This document shows positions 31,422 through 50,383 of a stretch of 64,000 nt of DNA, piece after piece. Positions within the stretch are counted from its first letter, which is position 1, and each line of letters starts with the position of its first letter. The notes beneath the pieces are model-generated. The model was not told the DNA's origin. It made no database searches and saw only the letters and a program-made list of their open reading frames with translations. Source of the DNA: an uncultured Granulosicoccaceae bacterium (lineage in GTDB: Bacteria > Pseudomonadota > Gammaproteobacteria > Granulosicoccales > Granulosicoccaceae); the NCBI GenBank assembly GCA_938035945.1, contig CALHOU010000006.1:1-64000 (forward strand), given 5' to 3'. The translations under genes and the position numbers were made by a program.

Positions 31422-32543
31422 ATGAGCGAACAGCCCGCTAGCGATGACTACGCCGGCATTCTTTTGAGCGGTGTCGCCTTGCTTGACGTACGCGCACCGG
31501 TGGAGTTTACCAAGGGCGCCTTTCCCGGTTCGATCAATATTCCGCTTCTAAGCGATGAAGCGCGACATCTTGTTGGTCTAGAATACAAAGTAGCCGGTCA
31601 GGAACGTGCGATTGAACTTGGCGCGAAGCTACTGCCCGAAGCGGACAGAGTAGCGCTTGTGCAAGGTTGGTTGGCGTTCGCTAAAGATAATCCCAAGGCG
31701 TATCTGTATTGTTTTCGTGGTGGCTTACGTTCGCGTATCAGCCAGCAATGGTTGAAAGACGCAGGTGTCGACATACCCATAGTCACCGGTGGCTATAAAG
31801 CGCTCAGGCAGTTCAGTATTCATACATTGGAACAGCAATGCGCGCGAGTGTCGTTTTGTTTGATTGGTGGTAGAACAGGTACTGGTAAAACTCGCTTACT
31901 CAATACACTGCCAAACTCAATTGATCTGGAAGCATTAGCTCGTCACCGCGGATCCAGTTTTGGCAGGATGGTGGTTGAGCAACCCTCGAATATCGATTTC
32001 GAAAATGCCATCGCCATTGAATTGTTACGCTTTTCTACTAAACCAATAAAGCCGTTGTTCCTGGAAGATGAAGCCCGCATGATTGGTTCGGCTTGTATAC
32101 CAGAACCTCTGCGCAACAGGACGATCAAAGCACCGGTTGCGATTTTGGAAACACCCTTAGAAACACGCGTGCAATTTGGTATTGAGGACTACGTAATCGA
32201 CTTACTTCAGCGCTATCGTGAGCGTGACGGTGAGGCAGCAGGATTTGCGGCATTCGCAGATTATCACCGTGGTAGTTTAAGTCGGGTGCAAAAACGGTTG
32301 GGTGGTGTACGCTATAGTCAAGCCAGAGCCTTATTAGAAACTGCGTTGCAAACGCATGAAAGTAAGAATGAAACTCATGACTATAATCCATTTATAGAAA
32401 TGATTCTTACCGATTACTACGACCCTATGTACGACTATCAAACCAAAGCCAAGCACGCCCGAGTAGTGTTTAAAGGTGATCGCAAAGCCTTAAGGGAATG
32501 GGCGCAAAGCTATGTGCCGCAAGAAATTGCGCCAGCCACATGA
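31422..32543 (+). CDS. mnmH: tRNA 2-selenouridine synthase MnmH (SelU)
   Basis: The 373-residue protein has an N-terminal rhodanese domain with catalytic Cys97 in YLYCFRGGLRS, the same number as in E. coli. A P-loop domain follows (IGGRTGTGKT, residues 148-157). It replaces sulfur by selenium in 5-methylaminomethyl-2-thiouridine at the tRNA wobble position, using selenophosphate and a geranylated intermediate. The selD fusion gene starts inside its stop codon (ATGA overlap), so the selenophosphate source is translated in step with its user. Confidence 0.95.
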   Translation: MSEQPASDDYAGILLSGVALLDVRAPVEFTKGAFPGSINIPLLSDEARHLVGLEYKVAGQERAIELGAKLLPEADRVALVQGWLAFAKDNPKAYLYCFRGGLRSRISQQWLKDAGVDIPIVTGGYKALRQFSIHTLEQQCARVSFCLIGGRTGTGKTRLLNTLPNSIDLEALARHRGSSFGRMVVEQPSNIDFENAIAIELLRFSTKPIKPLFLEDEARMIGSACIPEPLRNRTIKAPVAILETPLETRVQFGIEDYVIDLLQRYRERDGEAAGFAAFADYHRGSLSRVQKRLGGVRYSQARALLETALQTHESKNETHDYNPFIEMILTDYYDPMYDYQTKAKHARVVFKGDRKALREWAQSYVPQEIAPAT

Positions 32544-34789
32544 ATAGTTCACCGGTTGTTAAAGACGTCGTGCTTGTTGGTGGTGGCCACAGCCACGTGT
32601 TGTTGATTCGTATGTGGGCGATGCAGCCTATTCCGGGTGTGCGTTTAACCTTGATATCAGAAAAAGTTGAAACACCTTACTCGGGTATGTTGCCTGGTCT
32701 AATAGCCGGCCACTACACGCAAGATGATGTCCATATCGATTTAGCCAGGCTCTGTGCGTGGTCGAATGTACGATTTATTGAGCAACGCGTGACGGCGATA
32801 AATTTGCCTGATAAAAATCTGCAGGTCGACGTTGATCGGCCAAGCATTGGCTTTGACGTATTGTCTCTCGATACAGGTTCCACACCAGAGCTGGACATTA
32901 AAGGTTCGAAGAATTTTAGTGTGCCGGTAAAACCTGTGCATGGGTTTTATAGCCGATGGCAATCAATTCTTGCTCGTATTGAGAGTCACGCCAACAACTC
33001 ATCCTCTAATCAAGCATTGTCGCTTGGTGTTGTGGGTTCGGGGGCAGGTGGTTTTGAGCTGATTATGGCCATGCGACATGCCTTGCCTAAGGAACTGGCC
33101 AGTTGTCATTGGTTTGTTCGTGGTGAGCGCGTACTCAAGGGGCGTCCGGAAAAAGTATCCAGGTTGGCGATGCAAGCGGCCAAAGATGCCGGAGTGATTG
33201 TGCACGAAGGCTTTGATGTTGTTGAGGTGCAAGAGCAGGCGCTGCTAGCGCGCGATGGTCGTAGCGTTGGTCTGGACGAAATTGTTTGGTGCGCGGCTGC
33301 AAAGGCTCCCGCCTGGCCAAAACAGGCTGGCTTTAATGTCGATAAGCGCGGGTTTGTATTTACCAATGCGCATTTGCAAAGTGAATCGCACGACTTTGTT
33401 TTTGCTACGGGTGATATCGGCACCCAACGCGACACACCGAGCGATAAAGCTGGCGTATTTGCGGTGCGGCAAGCTCCGATCCTGTTTCAGAACATTCGAC
33501 GCTACTTACTAAACACCAGACTTAAAACATATCGCCCACAGAAAGATTTTTTATCCTTGATGGCAACCGGTGCAAAGTCCGCGATTGGCAATCGCGGCCC
33601 CCTCACCGTGCAAGGTGCTTGGGTGTGGCGCTTAAAAGACATGATTGATCAAAAGTTCATGAATCAGTTTAGACGCTTACCCGATATGAATTCCAAACGG
33701 GTTCCATTTGCTATTCCTAAAGCATTGTTAAGCGATACTGAATTAAAGCCTGAAGATGTCGCGAGCAACGCCATGCGTTGTAGTGGTTGTGGTGGAAAAG
33801 TGGGGGCCTCGATATTAGATTCTGTATTGGCCGACTTGCATCCGTTAAGAAACGCCGATGTGTTGTCCGGCCTAGATGAGGCTGAAGATGCAGCCGTTTT
33901 GAAAGCGCATTCCAATGTGCTTGTACAATCGGTTGATCAAATTTCGGCGGTGTGCTCCGACCCTTATGTGTTTGCACGAATAGCCACGGTTCATGCATTG
34001 TCCGACGTAGTGGCCTCCGCGGCAACTGCGCATTCAGCACAAGCGATAGTGAGCTTACCGTTTGCTGATCGGCATGTTGTGAAACGAGATCTGAAACAAC
34101 TGATGGCTGGCGTGGTTGATGCACTCAATGCCGACGAATGCAGTTTGATAGGTGGGCACACATCAGAGGGTAGCGATGTGAGTTTAGGGTTTGTGATTAA
34201 TGGTTTTCTAGATAATGCTGTTGAACATATTGCAGGAAAAACGGTAAAAGCGAATGTCGGCGACCACCTTATCTTGACCAAGCCCATCGGAAGTGGTGTG
34301 TTACTTGCCGGCATGATGCACGGCCAAGCAAAAGGCCGTGATGTGCAACAGCTTTTGCTTCATATGCAACGCAGCAATAGAGTTGCGGCATCTGAGTTGT
34401 TCGAACACCAAGCCAGTGCTGTAACCGATGTCACCGGCTTTGGTTTACTCGGTCATTTGCAACGACTGATAGCACCTATAGGCTTAGGCGCTGCGCTGGA
34501 TGTCGGCAGTGTACCTGTTTATCCCGGCGCGTTGGACCTAGCGCAGAGCGGGGTTAGCAGTACACTATTAAGCCAGAATCAACAGGTTTTATCGCTAACG
34601 AGCGGTCCTGATGATCAGTCGGATGCATGGCTTAACTTATTGTGCGACCCGCAAACCAGCGGGGGATTGCTGGGCGTGGTGCCTGCGGCTGTTTCCGACA
34701 CGGTTTTAAATAAGTTGCGCCATCACGCTTGTGAACACGCCTGCGTTATCGGTAGGATTACAGCCGATGATGGAATCAAACTAATATAA
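32540..34789 (+). CDS. selD: FAD-dependent oxidoreductase fused to selenide, water dikinase (SelD)
   Basis: The 749-residue fusion starts at ATG 32540, overlapping mnmH. Residues about 8-370 form an NDH-2-like pyridine nucleotide-disulfide oxidoreductase (VVLVGGGHSHVLLIRMW; second dinucleotide motif GVVGSGAGGFEL; ATGDIGT). Residues about 410-749 form SelD, with catalytic Cys417 and Lys420 (SGCGGKVG), the ATP-site aspartates in VQSVDQISAV, and IGGHTSEG. SelD makes selenophosphate from selenide and ATP. The N-terminal domain probably supplies or handles reduced selenium; this architecture is known but its oxidoreductase substrate is not settled. The active-site residue is Cys, not selenocysteine. 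Confidence 0.93.
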   Translation: MNSSPVVKDVVLVGGGHSHVLLIRMWAMQPIPGVRLTLISEKVETPYSGMLPGLIAGHYTQDDVHIDLARLCAWSNVRFIEQRVTAINLPDKNLQVDVDRPSIGFDVLSLDTGSTPELDIKGSKNFSVPVKPVHGFYSRWQSILARIESHANNSSSNQALSLGVVGSGAGGFELIMAMRHALPKELASCHWFVRGERVLKGRPEKVSRLAMQAAKDAGVIVHEGFDVVEVQEQALLARDGRSVGLDEIVWCAAAKAPAWPKQAGFNVDKRGFVFTNAHLQSESHDFVFATGDIGTQRDTPSDKAGVFAVRQAPILFQNIRRYLLNTRLKTYRPQKDFLSLMATGAKSAIGNRGPLTVQGAWVWRLKDMIDQKFMNQFRRLPDMNSKRVPFAIPKALLSDTELKPEDVASNAMRCSGCGGKVGASILDSVLADLHPLRNADVLSGLDEAEDAAVLKAHSNVLVQSVDQISAVCSDPYVFARIATVHALSDVVASAATAHSAQAIVSLPFADRHVVKRDLKQLMAGVVDALNADECSLIGGHTSEGSDVSLGFVINGFLDNAVEHIAGKTVKANVGDHLILTKPIGSGVLLAGMMHGQAKGRDVQQLLLHMQRSNRVAASELFEHQASAVTDVTGFGLLGHLQRLIAPIGLGAALDVGSVPVYPGALDLAQSGVSSTLLSQNQQVLSLTSGPDDQSDAWLNLLCDPQTSGGLLGVVPAAVSDTVLNKLRHHACEHACVIGRITADDGIKLI

Positions 34790-38030: not shown

Positions 38031-39665
38031 GTGCTTGAAGAAGACTATTATCTCGCCAACTTTCGTTCTCTGGTCGATTTTGTTGGCAAAACTTATCATG
38101 GCTTGCTAAGTGACGCTGAGGTCCGATGGCAACGCGCCATTTTGGGCGTTCCAGAGTCTGCGCAACGACTTTATGTTCGACTGTCTAATCGCCGCGCTAC
38201 TGTTTTCCGAGTCAGCAAACTCAAGTATCCCGAGATTGATTCCATAGCAAATGCATCTCTTGCTCTTGAGAATAGTCACTTAGCTCAAACAGCACCGCCC
38301 GACGATATAGGGCTACTGTTGGTTGCGTTCACCAAACCAGAAATTATCAAGCTGCTGGACTTGAAGAATCATCGACAGCTATCGCGTAGTGATCTGGAGG
38401 ACGTTGTCATAGAGCGGCAACAAGTAACCGATATAGACATCCTGCAACAGGCCGATCAGTGGATAACATTAGCAGGACTGGAACAGTACACCGTTTTTAA
38501 ACTGTGCTTCTTCGGCAACTGCTATCAAGACATGTCGGAATTTGTGCTAAGAGATTTAGGCGTTTTTGAATACGAACAATACCGAATTGATAAACATTCT
38601 CGTGTTTTTCAATCCAGAGCCCAACTTGATGCGCATCTGCAATACTTCGCATGCGCTGATGTTTTTAGTGAGATTGATCAAACTCAAGTAGCCTTGTTGC
38701 ACGAAGTTCATCGCAGTTTGCCTGATCGCAATCCTAACGACCCCCATCTCACGCGTCGAGTAGATCGTATGCGTAATACCATTGCACGCCAACTGGAGCG
38801 CCTAGGTGAACCCGAACAGGCCTTAGCTCTATACCAGCTCTCTGAAAAACCACCATCCAGAGAAAGGCAGGTACGGCTATTGATGAAGTTATCTCAATTT
38901 AAAGATGCCTTAACTTTGTGTGAACAAATCAAGCTTACACCCATGGCCGACGAAGAGCTGCAGTTTGTGGATACCATCACCCCCAAGCTCTATAAGCAAT
39001 TAGATTTTCCAGCACCCAGGAAAACTAACTTTCGACCCAGTACTACGAAGTTGACGTTGACACAAAGTGATGCACGCGTAGAATTTATCGCCAAAGATTT
39101 TTATGCCCAATTCGGTGAATGCTTTTACGTTGAAAACGCGCTGATCAACGGCGTGCTCGGTTTGTTCATTTGGGATATTATTTTTGCACCCGTTGATGGT
39201 GTTTTTTACAACCCTTTCCAGTCAGCACCAGCAGATTTTTATGAACAAGAATTTTTTGAAAAGCGATCAAGCCTTTTAAAGCAGCGTTTCAAAGAACTTG
39301 AAGATCCACTGCATTTTTCAGCCAGAGTATGGGAATGCTACGAACACCGGCAAGGTGTCATGAATCCTCTGGTGAATTGGCATTACCTAAGCGAAGAATT
39401 GCTATCATTGGCGCTAATAAGAATTCCAGCCATGGACTGGAAAATTTTATTCCAGCGCATTCTTAAAGACCTACGCAATCACACAAGTGGCTTGCCGGAC
39501 CTTATATTATTCCCAACCGATGGCTCGTATGAAATGATCGAGATTAAAGGGCCGGGTGATGCTGTGCAAAAAAATCAGCGGCGCTGGATGGAATATTTTT
39601 CAAAGCACCGGATTCCGTATAGAGTTGTGCATATACGTTGGGCCAGTCAAACCACATCCGCGTGA
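38031..39665 (+). CDS. FAN1-type VRR-NUC structure-specific nuclease
   Basis: The 544-residue protein starts at GTG 38031. The C-terminal VRR-NUC (PD-(D/E)XK) domain has Asp490 (GLPDLIL), Glu504 and Lys506 (MIEIKGPGD) and the following Gln in VQKNQRRWM. Before it lie a SAP-like stretch (DLKNHRQLSRSDLEDVV) and a TPR-like helical region (EPEQALALYQL and FKDALTLCEQI). This is the layout of FAN1, a 5'-flap nuclease that removes DNA interstrand crosslinks in eukaryotes and is also found in Pseudomonas. The helicase gene overlaps its stop by 4 bases, so the two probably work together. Confidence 0.88.
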   Translation: MLEEDYYLANFRSLVDFVGKTYHGLLSDAEVRWQRAILGVPESAQRLYVRLSNRRATVFRVSKLKYPEIDSIANASLALENSHLAQTAPPDDIGLLLVAFTKPEIIKLLDLKNHRQLSRSDLEDVVIERQQVTDIDILQQADQWITLAGLEQYTVFKLCFFGNCYQDMSEFVLRDLGVFEYEQYRIDKHSRVFQSRAQLDAHLQYFACADVFSEIDQTQVALLHEVHRSLPDRNPNDPHLTRRVDRMRNTIARQLERLGEPEQALALYQLSEKPPSRERQVRLLMKLSQFKDALTLCEQIKLTPMADEELQFVDTITPKLYKQLDFPAPRKTNFRPSTTKLTLTQSDARVEFIAKDFYAQFGECFYVENALINGVLGLFIWDIIFAPVDGVFYNPFQSAPADFYEQEFFEKRSSLLKQRFKELEDPLHFSARVWECYEHRQGVMNPLVNWHYLSEELLSLALIRIPAMDWKILFQRILKDLRNHTSGLPDLILFPTDGSYEMIEIKGPGDAVQKNQRRWMEYFSKHRIPYRVVHIRWASQTTSA

Positions 39666-42031
39666 GCAAGAAAATCCTCAAAGTATCAGTCACAACGCTT
39701 GCTGACTTCTCCTGTCGACAGGGTGATCTGGAGCTATCAGGCCCAGTCGGGCCGTCGGCACGCGAGGGCATGCGCGCCCATCAGCGCATTCAAAAACAAC
39801 GTGAGGTTGAATCTGAAACCAAGCTTAGTGTTGTTAACAAAGTTGCTGGTATCACAGTCACTTTGTCTGGCCGAGTAGATTTACTCGACTCGAAGCGGCA
39901 TCGGCTAAGCGAAATCAAGACTACCCTAGTACCCACATCACGCTTAAGTGAATCTAGGCTTGCATTGCAATGGGCGCAAATAAAGCTCTATGGATTTTGT
40001 TATTACAGGCAGTTGCTTAAAAACGGTGATGAAATTCCTGAAGCTGGTCTAGAGCTAGAACTTATACATGCCAACATCCGTGCTGAAAACGAAAATGCAC
40101 AACTACAAGTTTTCAGTTTCGCTGAGCTTGAAGCGTTTGCATTGGAAGCACTTGAACGTTATGTAGCTTGGTATAAAATTGTGTGGCGATCGCAAGCTAT
40201 AACCAAAGAAACGGCAGCTAAAGTCGAATTTCCCTTTCAACCGTACCGTGCGGGCCAAAGAGATATGGCTGCTGCTATTTTTCGTAGCGCCAGAGACGGC
40301 GACCCATTGTTGTGTGAAGCACCAACAGGTACTGGTAAAACCTTAAGCAGTGTATTCCCTGTTGTGAAAGCGCTCGGAGAAGGGTATGTGAAGCATGCTG
40401 TTTATCTAACCGCTAAAACCTCTGGTCGCGAAAGTGCTATGCAGGCTATTCGCAGCTTGGAACAAGCCGGTTTGAAAATAACATCAGTGATGCTTCGGTC
40501 GAAGTCGCCAACTTGTTTTTGTAGCAATGGACGCTGTGAGCGAGATGATAAGAATACCTGCCCGATGACGATCGGATTTTTCGACCGTTTACCAGCGGCG
40601 CGAGAAGAAGCTTTAGCGGCTGGCGTGCTGGATGGCCCTCAGCTTGACGAGATTGCCTGGCAACATCAGTTGTGTCCTTTTGAACTCGCGCTGCAAATGT
40701 TGCCATGGGTATCGTTTGCAGTTGCCGATTACAATTACGTGTTCGATCCGCTCGTTCGCATTGGCCGTTTCAACGAGTCGCGTGCTGATACAGCTCTCTT
40801 GGTAGACGAGGCTCATAATCTTGTAGACCGTGCCAGAGGTATGCACTCGGGCTATTTGAATCGAAAAGAGCTTGCTGAAGCGCAAAAGTTGGTCGATTTA
40901 AGTCATCCTATATTGGCTCAGCGAATTCAAAGTCTATGCAATGAGCTACTGGCTTTTTCTAAAACGCAAGAAAAGCCGAGCTGCGTATCTGATGACGTTC
41001 CTAAGAATTTACTCAAACACGCAAGCGCCGTTGTAGAAGCCTATACAGATGGACTCGATAGAGGGCCGACAATGCCAGAAGCCCTATTCGATATATTCAA
41101 GATGGCCTGTCGATTTTTGGCAATCAGTGATCTGTATTCTAAGCAGCATAAAGTGGTTACCCACCAGGAATCTCTTGGCCATTTCCGGGATGTAGAGGTC
41201 AATTTAAAGTGCTTAGATGCCGCAAGCTTTTTAACACCGCAGTACAATATATTTCGAAATGCGGTTGTTTTTTCGGCGACGTTGAGACCTGCACCTTTTT
41301 ATCGTGACGCATTGGGTATGCATGAAGGAACACAACAGTTAGTCATTGGTTCACCGTTCTCTATTGATCAAGTTAAGCACTGCGTGGTGGGGCACATCAA
41401 TACTCGCTACCGACATCGCTCAAGCTCTGTCCTCGAGCTTATTGAATTGCTAAACCAGATGCTCAACAGTAAATCAGGAAGCTACATGGTGTTCTTTCCA
41501 TCCTATGCTTATTTGGATTTGGTGTATAAATCATTCATAAAAAAGTATCCAAAGGTTGAAACGTGGAAGCAAGAACGGCAAAGTGACGTTGATGAGCGCA
41601 ATAGATTGTTAGGGAAGTTGGATACCGAGGGTACAAAACTCGGCTTCGCTATTTTAGGCGGTGTGTTTGGAGAAGGCATTGATTACATTGGTGACAAACT
41701 CATTGGTGTTGTAGTGGTTGGTGTAGGTTTACCTGGTATTGGTGTAGAGCAGGATTTAATTGCCAACTGTTATAGAGAACAGGGCTTAGACGGATTTGAT
41801 TATGCCTATCGCTATCCCGGTTTTACTAAAGTGTTGCAAACGGCCGGGCGTGTTATTCGAACTGAGAGTGACAGAGGCGTTGTGATTTTGGTTGATGATC
41901 GATTCAATCAGGCCTTTTATCGAGAGCTATTCCCTGAACATTGGCAGGTTGATACAGCGAATTCTTTGGCAGAGGTAAAGCTGCAATTGAATGACTTTTG
42001 GCAGGCGCAAAATCAGCTCGAACTAGCCTAA
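39662..42031 (+). CDS. XPD/DinG-like Fe-S helicase with N-terminal PD-(D/E)XK-like domain
   Basis: The 789-residue protein starts at GTG 39662, within the FAN1 stop. An N-terminal Cas4/RecB-like nuclease region is suggested by the C-terminal part of its motif (TLSGRVDLLD, then RLSEIKTTL). A superfamily 2 helicase core follows: Walker A EAPTGTGKT (about 218-226), a cysteine cluster (TCFC-SNGRC-ERDDKNTC, about 283-300, and QLCPFE later) fitting an XPD-type [4Fe-4S] domain, DEAH box LLVDEAHN (about 378-386) and the C-terminal motif VLQTAGRVIRTESDRG. XPD/DinG helicases unwind 5'-3' at lesions and structured DNA. With FAN1 it forms a likely crosslink- or flap-repair pair. Confidence 0.88.
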   Translation: MSKKILKVSVTTLADFSCRQGDLELSGPVGPSAREGMRAHQRIQKQREVESETKLSVVNKVAGITVTLSGRVDLLDSKRHRLSEIKTTLVPTSRLSESRLALQWAQIKLYGFCYYRQLLKNGDEIPEAGLELELIHANIRAENENAQLQVFSFAELEAFALEALERYVAWYKIVWRSQAITKETAAKVEFPFQPYRAGQRDMAAAIFRSARDGDPLLCEAPTGTGKTLSSVFPVVKALGEGYVKHAVYLTAKTSGRESAMQAIRSLEQAGLKITSVMLRSKSPTCFCSNGRCERDDKNTCPMTIGFFDRLPAAREEALAAGVLDGPQLDEIAWQHQLCPFELALQMLPWVSFAVADYNYVFDPLVRIGRFNESRADTALLVDEAHNLVDRARGMHSGYLNRKELAEAQKLVDLSHPILAQRIQSLCNELLAFSKTQEKPSCVSDDVPKNLLKHASAVVEAYTDGLDRGPTMPEALFDIFKMACRFLAISDLYSKQHKVVTHQESLGHFRDVEVNLKCLDAASFLTPQYNIFRNAVVFSATLRPAPFYRDALGMHEGTQQLVIGSPFSIDQVKHCVVGHINTRYRHRSSSVLELIELLNQMLNSKSGSYMVFFPSYAYLDLVYKSFIKKYPKVETWKQERQSDVDERNRLLGKLDTEGTKLGFAILGGVFGEGIDYIGDKLIGVVVVGVGLPGIGVEQDLIANCYREQGLDGFDYAYRYPGFTKVLQTAGRVIRTESDRGVVILVDDRFNQAFYRELFPEHWQVDTANSLAEVKLQLNDFWQAQNQLELA

Positions 42032-42104: not shown

Positions 42105-42503
42105 TTAGGCCTTTCGACGACGAGTAGTAGACGATTTACGGCGGGCTGTTGCCTTTCGTTTAGTGGATTTGCGTACCGGCTTTTTTGCAGCAGGTTTACG
42201 CTTTGTTGCAGCTTTGCGCTTCGCAACAGTTTTCTTAGCAGGCTTACGCTTAGCAGCCGTCTTTTTAGCTGGTTTACGCTTGGCCGCTGCTTTCTTCTTA
42301 GCAGGCTTGCGCTTGGCAACAGTCTTCTTAGCAGGCTTACGCTTAGCTACGGCTTTCTTCTTGGCAGGCTTCTTTTTAGTGGCCGCTTTTTTCTTCGCTG
42401 GTTTACGCTTCGCGCCGGCCTTTCCAGCGGTTGACTTTTTTCCAACAGTTTTCTTAGTTGTGACCTTGCGGGTCACCTTTTTCTTAACACTCTTAGTTTT
42501 CAC
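42105..42503 (-). CDS. Histone H1-like Lys/Ala/Pro-rich repeat protein
   Basis: The protein is 132 residues from GTG 42503, preceded by GAGGAA at a good distance. An upstream in-frame ATG at 42614 would add 37 unrelated residues and is rejected. It is almost entirely made of Lys, Ala, Arg, Pro and Thr, with repeated KRKPAKK(T/K)xA units, resembling the bacterial H1-like/AlgP (KPAA-repeat) proteins. These bind DNA non-specifically and affect nucleoid structure or gene expression. The coding DNA carries matching tandem repeats prone to slippage, so its length probably varies between strains. Confidence 0.85.
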   Translation of the reverse strand: MKTKSVKKKVTRKVTTKKTVGKKSTAGKAGAKRKPAKKKAATKKKPAKKKAVAKRKPAKKTVAKRKPAKKKAAAKRKPAKKTAAKRKPAKKTVAKRKAATKRKPAAKKPVRKSTKRKATARRKSSTTRRRKA

Positions 42504-43080
42504 GTAGTGTTCCTCATTTAAATGGCTAAAGTGCGTTCTCGCAGAGCAAATAGCGTACACATCGGCAAAAACTAGAGAAAAAAGTTTGATATAGAGCACT
42601 TTTTTATAACTCAAGTGCCAAATTCACACCGTATTCTAAGAAAAAGAGTGTTTTTAATTTTTCTATTTATTTTCTTTGATTACAAAAAAGGCCTATGTTT
42701 GCGGCAATAGATTCAACTCTCAACGTAATGTTGATTCATGCAGGACAATTCCTTTCATGAGGCGTGATGAGCCCTAACTGCGATGGTGTGTGCAGATCAT
42801 ATAGATGCTTTGCGCATCGAACTAGTGCTCAGAGAACGTTCACGCCACTAAAAACACAAGAAATGCGAACCCAGGATGGGTATAAATTTCTTTGTTCACT
42901 ACCAGAATTCATGCGTTAGCAGGTTTAGTGAGAAAAAAATATAACTTAAATCGACTAGTAAACGTTGCAATTTGTTGAATTAGTGATACCGTTGTAACTT
43001 AGGCTTTAGTATAGTTTTCGGTGCAGGAGGCTCCGAATTCGGATCATCGATTTACATATAATAAAAAGAGGGCTTCTCAG
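42504..43080. other. Gene-free 577-base stretch between H1-like gene and csrA (two leaders)
   Basis: The stretch holds the divergent leaders of the H1-like gene and csrA. I find no credible coding frame in it. AT-rich DNA lies around 42640-42690. Several GGA-containing sites occur on the csrA side, including AGGAGG at 43025-43030. No tRNA or small-RNA structure could be recognised with confidence. Confidence 0.5.
42586..42614 (-). promoter_or_regulatory. Possible sigma-70 promoter of the H1-like gene
   Basis: Read on the minus strand: TTGAGT, a 17-bp spacer, then TATCAA, about 80 bases before the GTG start. It is a moderate match only. Confidence 0.35.
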
Positions 43081-43520: not shown

Positions 43521-46445
43521 TTACAACTGATGCATGGATAGACCTAACGCCTTTACATCACCGGCTTCGGCTGTGGCTGCGCTCGTTATAACTGCGGTGC
43601 TCGCGGTTGAGGCGTCGAAATAGGTTTCGCCGACGCGTTTTAAATCCTCTAGGCCCACATTCAATATTTTCTGCCGCGCCGCTTGTCGCACTTCTGGTGA
43701 TCGGCCAAATAGTTCACCTTGGTAAGCACCTCGTGCTTCGCCAACCGGTGAGGCTGGTTTGTCGATGCTGCTAATCACATTCAAAATCGCTTCTTCCAGA
43801 GCTTGTTCATCGTGCTTTTCATTTCGCAACCATTGAATCGATGCATCAAAATCATTGAGCGTATCGACTAAACGAGGGTCTCGATACGAATAGAAGTTGA
43901 ACGAGGCAGCGTCTTGATTGTAAGTAGCGCCTCCGCCATAGGCTCCGCCAGTTTCGCGAATACAACGATGTAGATAGCCATTTCTTAAAAAAGGGCCCAA
44001 AACTGTCAACGCTGCACTGTCTTCGTGCGCAGAAGGCACGGTTGGATAGGCTTTAGCGCAGAAATTTACTTCTGTACTGGTTGTCCATAGCTGGCTGACC
44101 GACTCGCGGATTGCATCAGGCTTATCCAACGGCAGGGCCGAGTCCACTGGTAGAGCAAATATCGGTGCGAATTGCGCACTGACTGACGCTAAGTTGTCTT
44201 GCTCTGCCACCAGCATAAATTGCCGAGGAGCTGCTTTAACCGCATCGGCAATGCGCGAGAGCTTTTCACAAATCGCAGCCAGTGATTGTGGGTCGTTGGC
44301 CAGCTCATCCAACTTTTTCAATTCTTGTATACCCACTAACCCACTGAGTTCGTGAGAGAGCTTTGCGATAGGGCTCATGCCACTGGAGGCTGCAGACATA
44401 GCCAGGCTATGACCTCGACCCGTTACGCTCTGTTCGGCCGATGTCCGTGATTGGGCGAGCAGTTCGCGGATGCGGTCGTGTTCATCAAAGCGAAGATTGT
44501 TAAGCGTATCGTTTAATATTTCGCTCAATGCACCTGAATTGCGCACTAAGGACTTTCCTCTCATGATCAAGTAGCTCGTTACGTCTTGCTCGCTTTCACG
44601 CGCGCTACGGCGACTAACATAAGTTGAGATACCGCCAGTAACCGATGCCTGTAAAGCTTGTGTCTCGATATAGTCTCGACCGCCAGAACCAAGCTCTGCC
44701 GCAATGCCTGTGTAGATAGGTAGCAGTGCTTGCAGTTCATCATCAAGTTTAGGTAGCTGCATAACAATGTGAGGATAGACAAGCCCGTTCGTGCCTTGTG
44801 CATAGTGCATCGCGGGCGCAGCCTCTATGGTTGTACTTGTGCCCGAGCAAATGTGCATCGTGGCAGGTACATCGGCTCGGGTCACTTTGGGCAAGATATC
44901 TGGGTCTTCCTCCATACCTTGTCGCTCAGCTAGGGCTTTGGTCTGTTCGATGATTCTGGTTATGTCATCGCTATCAAGGCTTGCCTTTATTTCACTGAGA
45001 CGTTCCTTTTCTGCAATCACGCGGCGTTCACTGATTTTATTATCAGGTCTAAGCGTTAGTCGAACCTGGTGGGTGTTGTCTAACAATAACCGTTGCACCA
45101 GTTCAGGAATAAAGTTTGGATCGTCAGCAGCAATGCGTAAACGCTCTAATGCTGGATCGAGATCGAGAGCAGCAATTGCATCACCCCGTTGCATCGCAGG
45201 CGATAAACCACTTAATAGTAGGGTTAAACCGAACGGCATACCGTCGCCACGAATTTCACGTTGGCTTAGTTCGAGCTGGTGAAGTACGGCATCTACTTGT
45301 TCTTTTGGTACTCCGTTTTTAGCAACGTCTCTTAATACATCGAGAATAAGCTTTTCGATTTCATCGGCCTTGTCTGGTTCGGTTCCATCAACACCACACA
45401 CAAAAACCATTTCCAATGAGCCGTCTTCCACACCGCAAAGTCGCGACGGTGCATTACCCAAGTCAGTTTTTTCCAAAGCTTGCATCAATGGGGACGCACT
45501 GTTGTCCAACAACACGCTCGATAACAAATGCGTTTTTAAGCGTTCATCTAGGTCGATACTTTTGCCAAGTAGCCAACTCATCACAACGTGGGTACGGTTG
45601 TTTTGATCTGGTTCTTCGTTGGCATACGCTTCTTCAACTCTTACTGGCGAGTGAATAGGGTGTGCTTTGTCAACTTTGATAACACGATCGAGTTTTTCAA
45701 AACGGGACAAAACCTGGTCTTGAAAACGAGTTTGCAATTCAGCGGCAGGGATATCGCCAAACGTCATGAACACGGCGTTGCTGGGGTGATAATGCGTTTT
45801 ATAAAAGCTGATGAGCTCATCGTAACTTAAGTCTGGAATCGCTACCGGATCACCGCCACTGTTGTGATGGTAGGTGTTGTTAGCGTGCAGGTGCTTACTG
45901 ATTTCTTGCCACAGGATACTTGATGGTGAACTCATTGCGCCTTTCATTTCGTTGAACACAATGCCTTTGAACACGAGATCGGAATTTGGGTCGTCCGGTG
46001 TTTCAAATTCAACCCGATGACCTTCTTGCATAAAATCAAGCTCGGCAATGCGCGAGAAGAACACCGCGTCCAGATAAACATCGAGCAGATTGAAATAATC
46101 TTTTCGATTTTGGCTGGCAAACGGATAGGCCGTCCAATCGCTGGAGGTAAATGCATTCATAAATGTATTCAGCGAGCGCCTGATCATCATGAAGAACGGG
46201 TCGCGCACAGGGTACTTTTCACTACCGCAGAGGACTGTGTGTTCAAGAATATGTGCCACCCCGGATGAGTCGGTCGGGATGGTGCGCAGGCCAACCAAAA
46301 ACACGTTTTCTGGGTTGTCGGCTGCTAGGTGAATATGTGGTGCACCTGTTTTTTTGTGACGAAATTCATGTACCTCGACGTCGAGAGACTCGATTTTGGC
46401 GGTTCGCAGCTGCTCGAAAGCAGGGTGTGGCGACATGATGTTCAT
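43521..46445 (-). CDS. M16C insulinase-family zinc metalloprotease (PreP-like)
   Basis: The 974-residue protein has the inverted zinc motif HxxEH (His65, Glu68, His69 in AHILEHTVLCGS), followed by the conserved RDPFFMMIRRSLNTFMNAFT segment. Its overall length and four-domain layout match presequence protease (PreP/Cym1) in subfamily M16C. These enzymes degrade short unfolded peptides in a closed chamber. No signal peptide is visible, so it is probably cytoplasmic. It starts at ATG 46445, or at ATG 46436 three codons on. It is divergent from the pilin-ankyrin gene. Confidence 0.92.
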   Translation of the reverse strand: MNIMSPHPAFEQLRTAKIESLDVEVHEFRHKKTGAPHIHLAADNPENVFLVGLRTIPTDSSGVAHILEHTVLCGSEKYPVRDPFFMMIRRSLNTFMNAFTSSDWTAYPFASQNRKDYFNLLDVYLDAVFFSRIAELDFMQEGHRVEFETPDDPNSDLVFKGIVFNEMKGAMSSPSSILWQEISKHLHANNTYHHNSGGDPVAIPDLSYDELISFYKTHYHPSNAVFMTFGDIPAAELQTRFQDQVLSRFEKLDRVIKVDKAHPIHSPVRVEEAYANEEPDQNNRTHVVMSWLLGKSIDLDERLKTHLLSSVLLDNSASPLMQALEKTDLGNAPSRLCGVEDGSLEMVFVCGVDGTEPDKADEIEKLILDVLRDVAKNGVPKEQVDAVLHQLELSQREIRGDGMPFGLTLLLSGLSPAMQRGDAIAALDLDPALERLRIAADDPNFIPELVQRLLLDNTHQVRLTLRPDNKISERRVIAEKERLSEIKASLDSDDITRIIEQTKALAERQGMEEDPDILPKVTRADVPATMHICSGTSTTIEAAPAMHYAQGTNGLVYPHIVMQLPKLDDELQALLPIYTGIAAELGSGGRDYIETQALQASVTGGISTYVSRRSARESEQDVTSYLIMRGKSLVRNSGALSEILNDTLNNLRFDEHDRIRELLAQSRTSAEQSVTGRGHSLAMSAASSGMSPIAKLSHELSGLVGIQELKKLDELANDPQSLAAICEKLSRIADAVKAAPRQFMLVAEQDNLASVSAQFAPIFALPVDSALPLDKPDAIRESVSQLWTTSTEVNFCAKAYPTVPSAHEDSAALTVLGPFLRNGYLHRCIRETGGAYGGGATYNQDAASFNFYSYRDPRLVDTLNDFDASIQWLRNEKHDEQALEEAILNVISSIDKPASPVGEARGAYQGELFGRSPEVRQAARQKILNVGLEDLKRVGETYFDASTASTAVITSAATAEAGDVKALGLSMHQL

Positions 46446-46525: not shown

Positions 46526-48400
46526 TTGCCAAGTTCACACTTTAAGACAATGTATAACGGGCCGCTATCAATTACGGGAATGAGTGGTTCTTCGTGCTTT
46601 TGCGATAGATCAACCCTAGTGGTGTGGAGCGCTGTGAAATTATTTATAATTCTAATTGCGATGGTAGGGATGGGTGCCGGTGCGTTGCACGCCTACCAGA
46701 AACGTAATCTGCTGATACAGGCGGCGATGTATTCTGAAGCGTTCCTGCTGAGCACGCCAGTTAAAGCGCGCGTGTCCGATCACTATGTCCAGCACAGCAT
46801 CATGCCGCACGACAACACGGAGGTGGAGTTGGGTGTGCCGAAAAGTATCTACGGCACCAGTGTAAAGCGTGTGTCTGTACAGCGCAGTGGTCTGGTCATG
46901 GTCGATTTCGCTGATGAGATCGGCGAGCAAAGCCTGTTATTCACACCTTCAGTTAGCCCAATCTCGGGTCTACTCGAGTGGCGCTGTACAAGTGATTCAA
47001 TTGATCGAAAAGTGCTTGAATTGCTTAAGCCGGTCTGCCACCACACGCCGTCTACTAACGAAGGCAAATTGATCAACGCTATTGCTAATGGCAAGCTCGA
47101 AGTAGTGCGGCAACTGCTCACCGCCGGTGCTAATCCCGATGCCGTAGTGAATGGAAATTCCCCACTGATGTTGGCTGCAAAAATGGGCAACATCGATATT
47201 GTCAAACTGTTAGTTAGTAAGGGTGCCAGTGTCGACAATAATGCATTGAATTCTGAACGGCGCACACCGCTTATGGTAGCGATCAATAGTAACAATGCCG
47301 ATGTCGTTGGGTATTTACTTGCCAACGGTGCTTCTGTCACGCGGCGTGACTACAAAGGCCTTACGGCGCAAGACCATGCAGTTAACACCGATCGCCGTCT
47401 GAGCGGGGAACGATATGAATTGATGGTGCTGGCCCGACTTAACCCTAATTTTGCAGGTAAGCCTCAACGTAAGGGTACGAATAAGCGCAGTGGTGCACAA
47501 CAAGCAGCGCATTTAGAAGGACTGTTTGCGCAACTAACGACTGCTGCTAGGGATTGTCATGTGCAACGCCTTGCGACCTTGCTGCAAGAAGAGAAAGATT
47601 ACAATTCACCCGAAATGATCGATGGCAAGCCTTTATCCACCTACATCACTAAGCCTGCGTGTTCTGCCAAGCTAACTGAATTTATAAGAGCTAAGAAAAC
47701 CTATCAACATGGTTTGGAAGCTCGGTTTAATCGAGCGAATGATAGCTGTGACTTGAAAACGATTGACTCACTGTTAAGAGACAATCCGGAGCTTGATTTG
47801 CTGGGTACAGATCGTTTGCGTTCGCATTTTGATCGTGCGATCTTCGCTGGCTGCTCGAAGCTGGTGTCTTTCTATATCAGAGATCATGGGTTGGGCGATA
47901 AAATCGATGGCAGTCATTTGCTAAACGCGATACGAAAGGCACCTACTGCAAAACAAGTTGAGTTGGTGGGGACGATGCTAGCAGCGGGCGTTGACGTTAA
48001 CTTCCGAGATGATCACGATGAAACACCGCTAGAGGTGGCGATTGCACTGGAACAACCCGTTGTCGCAAAGTACCTAGTCGATGCTGGCGCCGATGTCAGT
48101 GCGCCAACCGTTAATGGTTCCTACCCAATAATAGAGGCATCGAAGAAAGGCTTTAATCACTTGGTTTCACAATTGATAAATCAGGGCGCTGATATCAATC
48201 AGCAAGATGCGATGGGTAGAACAGCATTAGTTGCCGCAGTTGCAAAGGGGCGTCGTCGGCTTGTTGATACCTTGCTACGCTCTGGTGCGGATCCTGTGCA
48301 AAAAGACCGAGACGGTATTAGTGCTGTGATGTTGGCTGAGAGCCTAAATTTCAAGCAGATTTATTCACAGCTCACAGCCAGTGCGTCAATAGATAACTAA
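46526..48400 (+). CDS. Membrane-anchored pilin-like domain fused to ankyrin repeats
   Basis: Up to 624 residues; starts at 46526 (ATG), 46580 (ATG) and 46634 (GTG) are all possible, and the conserved part begins near 46634. The segment VKLFIILIAMVGMGAGALHAYQ resembles a pilin N-terminal helix but lacks the prepilin peptidase site and Glu5. Residues 60-171 follow the type IVa pilin globular pattern: SEAFLLSTPVKARVSDHY, MPHDNTEVELG, SVKRVSVQRSG, LLFTPSVSPISGLLEWRC and a closing Cys171 that would pair with Cys154. Residues 177-345 and about 460-620 are ankyrin repeats (NSPLMLAAKMGNIDIVKLLVSKGA and similar). Function is unknown; a surface- or periplasm-facing binding protein is plausible. Confidence 0.8.
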   Translation: MPSSHFKTMYNGPLSITGMSGSSCFCDRSTLVVWSAVKLFIILIAMVGMGAGALHAYQKRNLLIQAAMYSEAFLLSTPVKARVSDHYVQHSIMPHDNTEVELGVPKSIYGTSVKRVSVQRSGLVMVDFADEIGEQSLLFTPSVSPISGLLEWRCTSDSIDRKVLELLKPVCHHTPSTNEGKLINAIANGKLEVVRQLLTAGANPDAVVNGNSPLMLAAKMGNIDIVKLLVSKGASVDNNALNSERRTPLMVAINSNNADVVGYLLANGASVTRRDYKGLTAQDHAVNTDRRLSGERYELMVLARLNPNFAGKPQRKGTNKRSGAQQAAHLEGLFAQLTTAARDCHVQRLATLLQEEKDYNSPEMIDGKPLSTYITKPACSAKLTEFIRAKKTYQHGLEARFNRANDSCDLKTIDSLLRDNPELDLLGTDRLRSHFDRAIFAGCSKLVSFYIRDHGLGDKIDGSHLLNAIRKAPTAKQVELVGTMLAAGVDVNFRDDHDETPLEVAIALEQPVVAKYLVDAGADVSAPTVNGSYPIIEASKKGFNHLVSQLINQGADINQQDAMGRTALVAAVAKGRRRLVDTLLRSGADPVQKDRDGISAVMLAESLNFKQIYSQLTASASIDN

Positions 48401-48407
48401 GCTGGTT

Positions 48408-49775
48408 CTACTCTTCGAGAACCAGCGTGCCCATCACCGACGGATTTAAATAAGTAGTATCGGTATCAATCCCGTTTTGCATGGATGGGTGAAACCAGCC
48501 CCACTTGCTGTCTCGATCACCACTGTTGTCGTCATCATCGACTTGGATTTCAAATCCAAACTCCTCGCCTAGTTCGATGTCGGCTGAGTCGATGGAGATA
48601 GCCACTTCATAAACATCTTGTTCAAAGTTTGGAAAGCGAATTCCATCGGGGCCTTTGTCAGGCCCGGTGGTGAACTCTAAATCCAGCTCTAAATCTCTAG
48701 AGCCTGGGCCTGGTCTGAAACGCCCTTCGAATTCGTTATTCGCTTCTTCTGTATCCAGTTGAAGGAGCGGAATAAGATAGTGAAAGTCATCATCATCACC
48801 CCAGTCTTGTAGTTTACTGTTGTCGCCATCAATGAAAATCTCAATATTGTCATCCATCCATGCTTCAACTGAGTCACCGTAAATAGCACCAACATCATCA
48901 ACCATAACCAATATGTAGAGATTTTTACCGTCGTGCATGGCAGCCCAACGGCGTATTTGCGTGCCATCGGGGACATCGGCACCGTTGTCGATCATCAATC
49001 GATCGATGCTGAGCAGAGCGCCAGAATTATCGTATTGAACTGCGGCCGCCCATTCACCGTCTAAGTTATTTTCGCTGTTAAGTTCAACACCGAGTCCATC
49101 GATCTTGGGTGCTTGACTACGTGATATGCGCGGTACTAGAACGTTCGCACGAACTTGTGTCGGTGGTTGTTCGTTAGTTGGGGGGGCGTCGTCGGGAAGT
49201 TGCGATGGTGTGTCGTCATCAACAGGTATCACCGGATCATCTTCATTAGGTGGATTATCTTCAGCTTCATTATTAGGCAGATCATCAGTAGGTTGATCGC
49301 CGTTGTTTATCGCATCGTTTGGTACGAAGGGGTCGGTTTCATTTTGACGCTCTTCTATATTCGTGAATGAATCGCCGTCCGTATCGATAGCATAGTTGTA
49401 GCTCTCGTTATTAAGATCAATTTGTGCACCTATTGAATTTACAATCACGTTGTCGGTCCAACGTGCTAGCACAAGTTCGCCGTTAGCCAGGTTTTCAATC
49501 CACTCAACCGAGATGGTATAGGTAGCATTGGCCTGCACATTAATGGTACCGGTCCAACTGCTGTCGCCAACCTGTTGCATTGGAATAACCGCACCGGTTG
49601 ATAATGTGACAACTGGACGTAACTGGCTTCGATCAATCGCCCGAACTTGCATAATGCGAGCTGGTGGAGTGAATTTTAAGTTTGCATCAGGTTGTACGTC
49701 ACTTTGACAAGCAGACAAAGCCAATGCACTAAGCATGGCCACAGCGATTTTCAATCGATTAATGTGACTTTGCAT
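48408..49775 (-). CDS. Lipoprotein with CBM9-like domain and calcium-type acidic linker
   Basis: The 455-residue exported protein starts at ATG 49775 (AGGA upstream), with GTG 49781 overlapping the previous stop as an alternative. It has a lipobox (LSALALSAC), a small N-terminal beta domain containing PMQQVGDSSW, and a DTDGDSFTNIEE calcium-type loop. A long Asp/Asn/Pro-rich linker follows, then a C-terminal domain (about 215-455) like family 9 carbohydrate-binding/DOMON-like sandwiches (KNLYILVMVDD, DDNIEIFIDGDNSK, YEVAISI, GFEIQVDDDD). It probably binds sugars or heme-like ligands at the cell surface. It is co-translated with the preceding exported protein gene. Confidence 0.8.
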   Translation of the reverse strand: MQSHINRLKIAVAMLSALALSACQSDVQPDANLKFTPPARIMQVRAIDRSQLRPVVTLSTGAVIPMQQVGDSSWTGTINVQANATYTISVEWIENLANGELVLARWTDNVIVNSIGAQIDLNNESYNYAIDTDGDSFTNIEERQNETDPFVPNDAINNGDQPTDDLPNNEAEDNPPNEDDPVIPVDDDTPSQLPDDAPPTNEQPPTQVRANVLVPRISRSQAPKIDGLGVELNSENNLDGEWAAAVQYDNSGALLSIDRLMIDNGADVPDGTQIRRWAAMHDGKNLYILVMVDDVGAIYGDSVEAWMDDNIEIFIDGDNSKLQDWGDDDDFHYLIPLLQLDTEEANNEFEGRFRPGPGSRDLELDLEFTTGPDKGPDGIRFPNFEQDVYEVAISIDSADIELGEEFGFEIQVDDDDNSGDRDSKWGWFHPSMQNGIDTDTTYLNPSVMGTLVLEE

Positions 49776-49777
49776 GG

Positions 49778-50383
49778 TCACAGTCCTGTTAAATTAACGG
49801 TAAGAGGCACTGTTGCCTCGTTGCTTGCACCACTATCACCACCGGCGGCAGAGGCCAGTGCACCGACCAGCAGCACACCTGCGGCAATCTGCCACCAACG
49901 CAAGCCGCCTGACGAGCTCGTTTCATTGGTAGTAGCGATTGGCGCAGTTGGTGGAGCAACAACTAAGTTCGGATTCGCCGTGATAACGCGCGTGTAAGGG
50001 TCGAAGGCATAACCTTCTACGGTTCTGTTACCGCCTTCATCACGGGCTTGTATGTAATATTCAAATGCACGCAGGTCGTCTGTTTTTGTATCCACTGTGA
50101 CTGAGTAGTAGCTGCTGTCGCCAATTTGTGTCATTGGCACGGGTAGAAAGGGCTGCTGACCCGCTCGACGAAAATACAGCGATACATCTTTTAGCACGCG
50201 ATCATCTACCACTTGAGCGGTAAAAACTTGCGAAGTGTCAGCAACGGCCTGTGCCACCGCTTCCAATTCTATGAGTGGTGAACGAGTGTCTGGCGAACTT
50301 TGCGCAAATACAGCGGTCGCATTGGCAAGCTGCATGGCAATAACCATTGAAATGACTATAATTTTTTTGGTTAATCCGTTCAC
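49778..50383 (-). CDS. Exported protein with C-terminal membrane anchor
   Basis: The 201-residue protein has a signal peptide (about residues 1-27, ending AVFAQ). Its beta-type domain contains VPMTQIGDSSYYSVTVDT and AFEYYIQARDEGGN. A low-complexity Thr/Pro/Ala stretch follows, and then a C-terminal hydrophobic helix (WWQIAAGVLLVGALASAAG). The PM-x-Q-x-GDSS motif also occurs in the N-terminal domain of the next protein, which suggests a shared domain. The family name is not known to me. Its stop nearly overlaps the start of the lipoprotein gene, so the two are one unit. Confidence 0.75.
   Translation of the reverse strand: MNGLTKKIIVISMVIAMQLANATAVFAQSSPDTRSPLIELEAVAQAVADTSQVFTAQVVDDRVLKDVSLYFRRAGQQPFLPVPMTQIGDSSYYSVTVDTKTDDLRAFEYYIQARDEGGNRTVEGYAFDPYTRVITANPNLVVAPPTAPIATTNETSSSGGLRWWQIAAGVLLVGALASAAGGDSGASNEATVPLTVNLTGL

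Follow-up and report, generated by a model that had tools for sequence, protein, structure and literature searches.

We found that a gene on the forward strand of the window, which is the whole stretch of 64,000 nucleotides of Granulosicoccaceae DNA analysed here, encodes a type IVa pilin-like head fused to ankyrin repeats. The gene extends from 46634 to 48400 (+), has a GTG start and a stop codon at 48398-48400, and encodes a protein of 588 amino acids, as delimited by Pfam matches, ortholog starts and AlphaFold. The pilin-ankyrin design is real and conserved, and it is apparently undescribed, as our literature search among open-licence papers found no paper describing such a fusion. We favour, with about even confidence, the reading that the protein is a periplasmic ankyrin adaptor, which is tethered to the inner membrane and built on a non-assembling type IVa pilin. 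Pilins are viewed as subunits that either join the filament or wait in the membrane for it. A conserved gene that keeps the fold, drops the processing signal and adds a binding arm suggests that pilins can also be put to use as domesticated anchors or docks in the periplasm. The preliminary description of this DNA had proposed the pilin fold, the loss of prepilin processing and of Glu5, and the fusion to ankyrin repeats. All of this stood, whereas the role as a decoy or sensor that it had put forward is now less favoured.

Start codon, conservation and genomic slot

An open reading frame from 46526 to 48400 (+) is present in the sequence, as had been stated before. However, the TTG at 46526, previously taken as the start, lies 36 codons too early, and the ortholog alignment favours the GTG at 46634, which is almost surely the true start. 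Nearly all orthologs have GTG, rarely TTG, at the equivalent position (alignment, n=23), and the in-frame sequence 5' of this codon shows no conservation among them. In L047, L048, L049, L050 and L059, the frame 5' of the start is open for 1-9 codons before a stop is reached. An overlooked leader further 5' is ruled out by these upstream stops together with the unconserved sequence. That the N-terminal part might derive from a frame error, as had been considered, is not the case. A common architecture, placed in the same slot in 23 genomes (three of which recur as separate MAG records), rules out both a frame error and an assembly chimera.

A search for the fusion in related genomes, proposed earlier as a check, returned it in 22 of the 27 genomes of the source genus (Granulosicoccaceae) and in G032, one of the three genomes from a sister genus. 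A plasmid search gave no match. The ratio dN/dS is about 0.01-0.09 for the pilin and ankyrin parts alike (NG86; pairs with unsaturated synonymous sites), and by this estimate the fusion is under strong purifying selection.

Synteny places the gene in a constant slot, in the order csrA, M16C peptidase (-), fusion (+) and CBM9 lipoprotein-like gene (-). In the window, the divergent neighbour encodes an M16C (PreP-like) peptidase (43521..46445, -; Pfam, synteny), for which a signal peptide is not evident from the sequence. The convergent neighbour encodes a CBM9-domain lipoprotein-like protein (48408..49781, -; Pfam, synteny). None of the conserved neighbours of the fusion is an obvious partner. 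In the sister-genus genomes G035 and G027 the neighbours adjoin each other without the fusion, separated by about 19 bp in L088. The five genomes of the source genus without a fusion match are also without an M16C match, and in two of them (G016 and G007) the upstream helicase gene stands at a contig end. For these reasons, assembly gaps are the simpler reading of the absence from these five genomes, and a true loss is not supported.

Several other genes of the window are worth recording. A FAN1-like VRR-NUC nuclease gene is immediately followed by a DEAD_2/Helicase_C_2 helicase gene with a PD-(D/E)XK-like part (38031-42031), and this pair stays together across the genus. The gene at 42105-42614 (-) encodes a Lys/Ala-rich, histone H1-like protein with KPAKK repeats. 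At 31422-34789, a rhodanese/tRNA 2-selenouridine synthase-like gene lies beside a FAD oxidoreductase-SelD-like fusion, both named from sequence only.

The pilin head and its missing assembly signals

Residues 1-137 (46634..47044, +; PF00114, AlphaFold, PDB matches) are predicted with confidence to adopt a type IVa pilin fold. In the Pfam search with the whole ORF, Pilin PF00114 scored 28.8 bits against a cut-off of 22 (E 2.6e-6). Using phmmer, Neisseria PilE structures were matched at E 2.6e-7, the alignment opening at the start of the hydrophobic helix. Modelled alone with AlphaFold, residues 1-143 gave a pLDDT of 87.7, with a long helix (residues 2-54) and four strands in the order of the pilin elements; the mean pLDDT of the whole fusion was 85. 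The best PDB matches of the pilin-part model were type IVa pilins. For 1ay2, the Foldseek E value was 3e-6, and the structure alignment gave a Z of 11.1 and an rmsd of 4.6 for 132 residues at 27% identity. The type IVa pilin pattern that the preliminary description had read in the N-terminal part is thus borne out by PF00114, by the PilE matches and by the structure prediction that it had named as a check.

The C-terminal disulfide pair, previously given as Cys154/Cys171, corresponds to Cys118/Cys135 in the numbering of the 588-residue protein. Cys118 in the WxC motif (46985..46987, +) and Cys135 in the LKPxC motif (47036..47038, +) are invariant in the 23 orthologs, as are further residues of the pilin core including Pro58, Gly74, Val77, Gly86, Pro105, Gly112 and Trp116. 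The pair is also kept in the sequences of two distant pilin-ankyrin fusions.

The hydrophobic helix comprises residues 3-20 (46640..46693, +), as delimited by phmmer against PilE, the ortholog alignment and the upstream stops. Since the alignment with PilE begins at about residue 6 of the mature protein, in the alpha-1N part of the pilin helix, the start codon lies inside helix alpha-1. The N-terminus holds no prepilin leader, Gly(-1) or PilD cleavage site. Moreover, the stop 1-9 codons upstream makes a prepilin leader impossible in several orthologs. At the place of the pilin Glu5 there is Lys2 (Arg in L045), according to phmmer and the ortholog alignment. The ORF has no N_methyl match in Pfam and lacks the IPR012902 motif of class III signal peptides. 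The loss of both the prepilin site and Glu5, as claimed before, is therefore confirmed by the N-terminus, the ortholog starts and the PilE alignment. Type IV pilins without leader, Gly(-1) and Glu5 are not processed by PilD, and their assembly is unlikely. With neither leader nor Glu5, a non-assembling pilin is to be expected. The hydrophobic N-terminus and the conserved Cys residues are compatible with a predicted export to the periplasm, and the fusion should leave the cytoplasm and take on the pilin fold, yet not be assembled.

The ankyrin arm and its possible role

In Pfam, Ank_2 matched the whole ORF at E 2e-38, and the structure matches of the non-pilin remainder were ankyrin and DARPin structures. 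Matches to AnkX-type effectors, MzaA and PDC-M72A were set aside, being driven by the ankyrin part and reflecting repeat similarity only. As had been described, there are two ankyrin blocks, and between them lies a low-confidence linker. Block 1 (residues 142-270; 47057..47443, +; Pfam Ank_2, model helices, alignment) is missing in L058 and L059 according to the ortholog alignment. The variable linker (residues 271-286; 47444..47491, +) has the lowest conservation and a low pLDDT, which falls below 50 in the AlphaFold model at residues 274-283. Block 2 (residues 287-586; 47492..48391, +; Pfam, AlphaFold, alignment) is kept at its end (about 441-588) in all orthologs, whereas L056 and L057 lack the beginning of the block. 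Hence the pilin head and the final ankyrin block are constant across orthologs, whereas the middle repeats are variable. Conserved basic residues of the final block (Lys504, Lys505, Arg529 and Arg542; alignment) occupy, when placed by the repeat register, what we take to be the usual ligand-facing positions of ankyrin repeats, and they are the likeliest putative contact surface.

A stretch with four cysteines (47555..47854, +; alignments) falls within block 2. Cys308, Cys343, Cys372 and Cys407 are nearly invariant, and each is located at the inter-helix turn of one repeat, so that they form a ladder at the same place in successive ankyrin repeats. The four residues are lost together in L056 and L057, the orthologs without this stretch.

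How could such a protein work? The gene starts inside helix alpha-1 and hence encodes neither a PilD leader nor Glu5. Sec/SRP would insert the helix in an N-in/C-out orientation, and the helix would stay as a membrane tether. The head would fold as a pilin, disulfide included, as suggested by the predicted fold and the invariant Cys residues; a disulfide in the head implies the oxidising periplasm. Barred from the filament, the head may act as a spacer or dock at the inner membrane, and the ankyrin arm would bind a periplasmic protein. Pilin head and final ankyrin block would be the constant unit of this adaptor. By analogy, the binding role of the arm is plausible, because enzyme-binding ankyrin proteins of the periplasm are known, such as Bd3460 (PMC4686830).

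As the main rival we rank a soluble periplasmic adaptor, in which signal peptidase I would cut after A15-G16-A17 and free the pilin head together with the ankyrin part. The helix could be a cleaved signal peptide because its hydrophobic stretch, at about 16-18 residues, is short and leads into A-x-A, and there is a Lys at position 2. Of the 23 orthologs, 19 have this A-x-A at residues 15-17, and the others have A/S, I/G, I/G and V/A. However, canonical pilins carry a similar A-x-A at the matching place (AAIAIP) and are not cleaved there. The motif was perhaps inherited, and since canonical pilins share it, it decides nothing between an anchor and a cleaved signal peptide. In addition, the helix of a distant pilin-ankyrin fusion (G244) is hydrophobic but has no A-x-A-type motif. 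We regard release by signal peptidase I as a possibility to be kept in mind, although a doubtful one. Apart from this, a leaderless pilin might be a regulator or decoy, competing with PilA or reporting on it either at the assembly platform or at the PilS kinase. The pilin fold is retained under selection. PilQ was matched in all 27 genomes of the genus (26 over the family cut-off), and contig C121 of the host genome carries the prepilin genes for PilA1 and PilA2 along with pilB-, pilC- and pilSR-like genes, named from their sequences. However, PilQ is universal in the genus, so its co-occurrence with the fusion is uninformative. The pilin part is distant from the host pilins, with a shuffle z of 4.3-4.4 against PilA1 and PilA2 versus 10-28 against pilins of other bacteria, which also rules out a duplicate of the host PilA. 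Furthermore, the distance to pil genes, which was to be checked according to the preliminary description, speaks against such a regulator or decoy, as the fusion locus is not near them. Because the pilin part is unlike the host PilAs and the locus lies away from the pil genes, a decoy or sensor for the bacterium's own pilus is less favoured than it was before, and we consider it unlikely.

The fusion might instead inhibit or chaperone a neighbouring enzyme, for example the divergent M16C peptidase, as Bd3460 does for endopeptidases. The M16C gene adjoins the fusion at every same-family ortholog locus examined, and the five genomes of the genus without the fusion are also without M16C matches. 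This joint absence, however, fits assembly gaps. The peptidase has no evident signal peptide and so probably resides in a different compartment, and five other family members have it but not the fusion, with an empty slot shown in two of them. Such a role is therefore very improbable in our view. Hardly credible is a true modular minor pilin at the pilus tip with the ankyrin repeats as its functional module. Its layout of a pilin followed by a module resembles that of modular pilins as presented in the main text of PMC8179133, but class III signal peptide and Glu5 are lacking, and several orthologs have no room for a leader. Envelope-stress signalling by a truncated pilin (PMC3684759) was also weighed, and nothing links the fusion gene to it.

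Other leaderless pilin fusions and known systems

We scanned 369 gammaproteobacterial genomes and 398 genomes from across the phylum, both sets having been drawn evenly. The counts of pilin fusions are a lower bound, since those best matches that had long open frames were the ones examined. At least two further pilin-ankyrin proteins are present in other gammaproteobacterial families, one in G061 (L060:6570-8306, -; 578 amino acids, Pilin E 4.5e-11) and one in G244 (L075:3805-6345, +; 846 amino acids, Pilin E 4e-7). Both have an N-terminal hydrophobic helix and no leader, and the protein from G244 bears an additional, unassigned region at its C-terminus. In the pilin tree, the G061 type grouped weakly with the window's own family and the G244 type was unplaced; a single origin of the three types is undecided from these sequences.

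Pilin domains were also observed on other proteins. In three genomes, an M48 peptidase has a C-terminal, apparently leaderless pilin (L062:6697-8097, -; L078:979-2367, +; L094:1197-2501, +), and our literature search found no paper describing these proteins. A DUF2628-like protein with multiple transmembrane segments (L079:1513-2577, +) has a C-terminal pilin domain at E 8.5e-26. A protein of 964 amino acids (L093:2698-5592, +) appears to cross the membrane once; it contains a long low-complexity region and ends in a pilin-like head. This head is without helix alpha-1 and has no Pfam match, and its reading as a pilin comes from the A1 model (E 5.5e-11).

Thus, pilin heads appear to recur repeatedly on membrane proteins without an evident prepilin leader, and leaderless fusions such as the M48 peptidases and others would escape searches that are keyed to prepilin motifs. 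We tentatively raise the possibility, which we think less probable than not, that Proteobacteria reuse leaderless pilin heads as a module outside the filament. Such heads would put other domains, such as ankyrin arms or M48 peptidases, on the periplasmic side of the inner membrane, where they might dock on the platform of the type IV pilus. If true, there would be a class of pilus-associated proteins which never become pilus.

With the type IVa major pilins (Neisseria PilE, PF00114) the fusion shares the long N-terminal helix, the four strands and the C-terminal disulfide (WxC...C). In contrast to them, it has neither leader nor Glu5, starts inside helix alpha-1 and carries about 450 additional residues of ankyrin repeats. 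Modular pilins, for instance PilB of Streptococcus sanguinis, consist of a pilin with a grafted module and are defined in the main text of PMC8179133, where ankyrin is not mentioned, by the N-terminal IPR012902 motif. The fusion likewise has a pilin module and then an unrelated C-terminal module, here the ankyrin repeats. As judged from its sequence it is built like a modular pilin but is not classed as one, because IPR012902, the motif of class III signal peptides, is missing. Bd3460 of Bdellovibrio is a small periplasmic ankyrin inhibitor with an ordinary signal peptide, whose target gene adjoins its own (PMC4686830). Ankyrin repeats for protein binding outside the cytoplasm would be common to both, the export of the fusion being predicted; unlike Bd3460, the fusion bears an N-terminal pilin part and has no obvious target gene beside it. 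The M48 peptidase-pilin proteins share with it that an apparently leaderless pilin forms one module of a membrane protein, whereas their pilin is C-terminal, sits on a peptidase and is not combined with ankyrin repeats.
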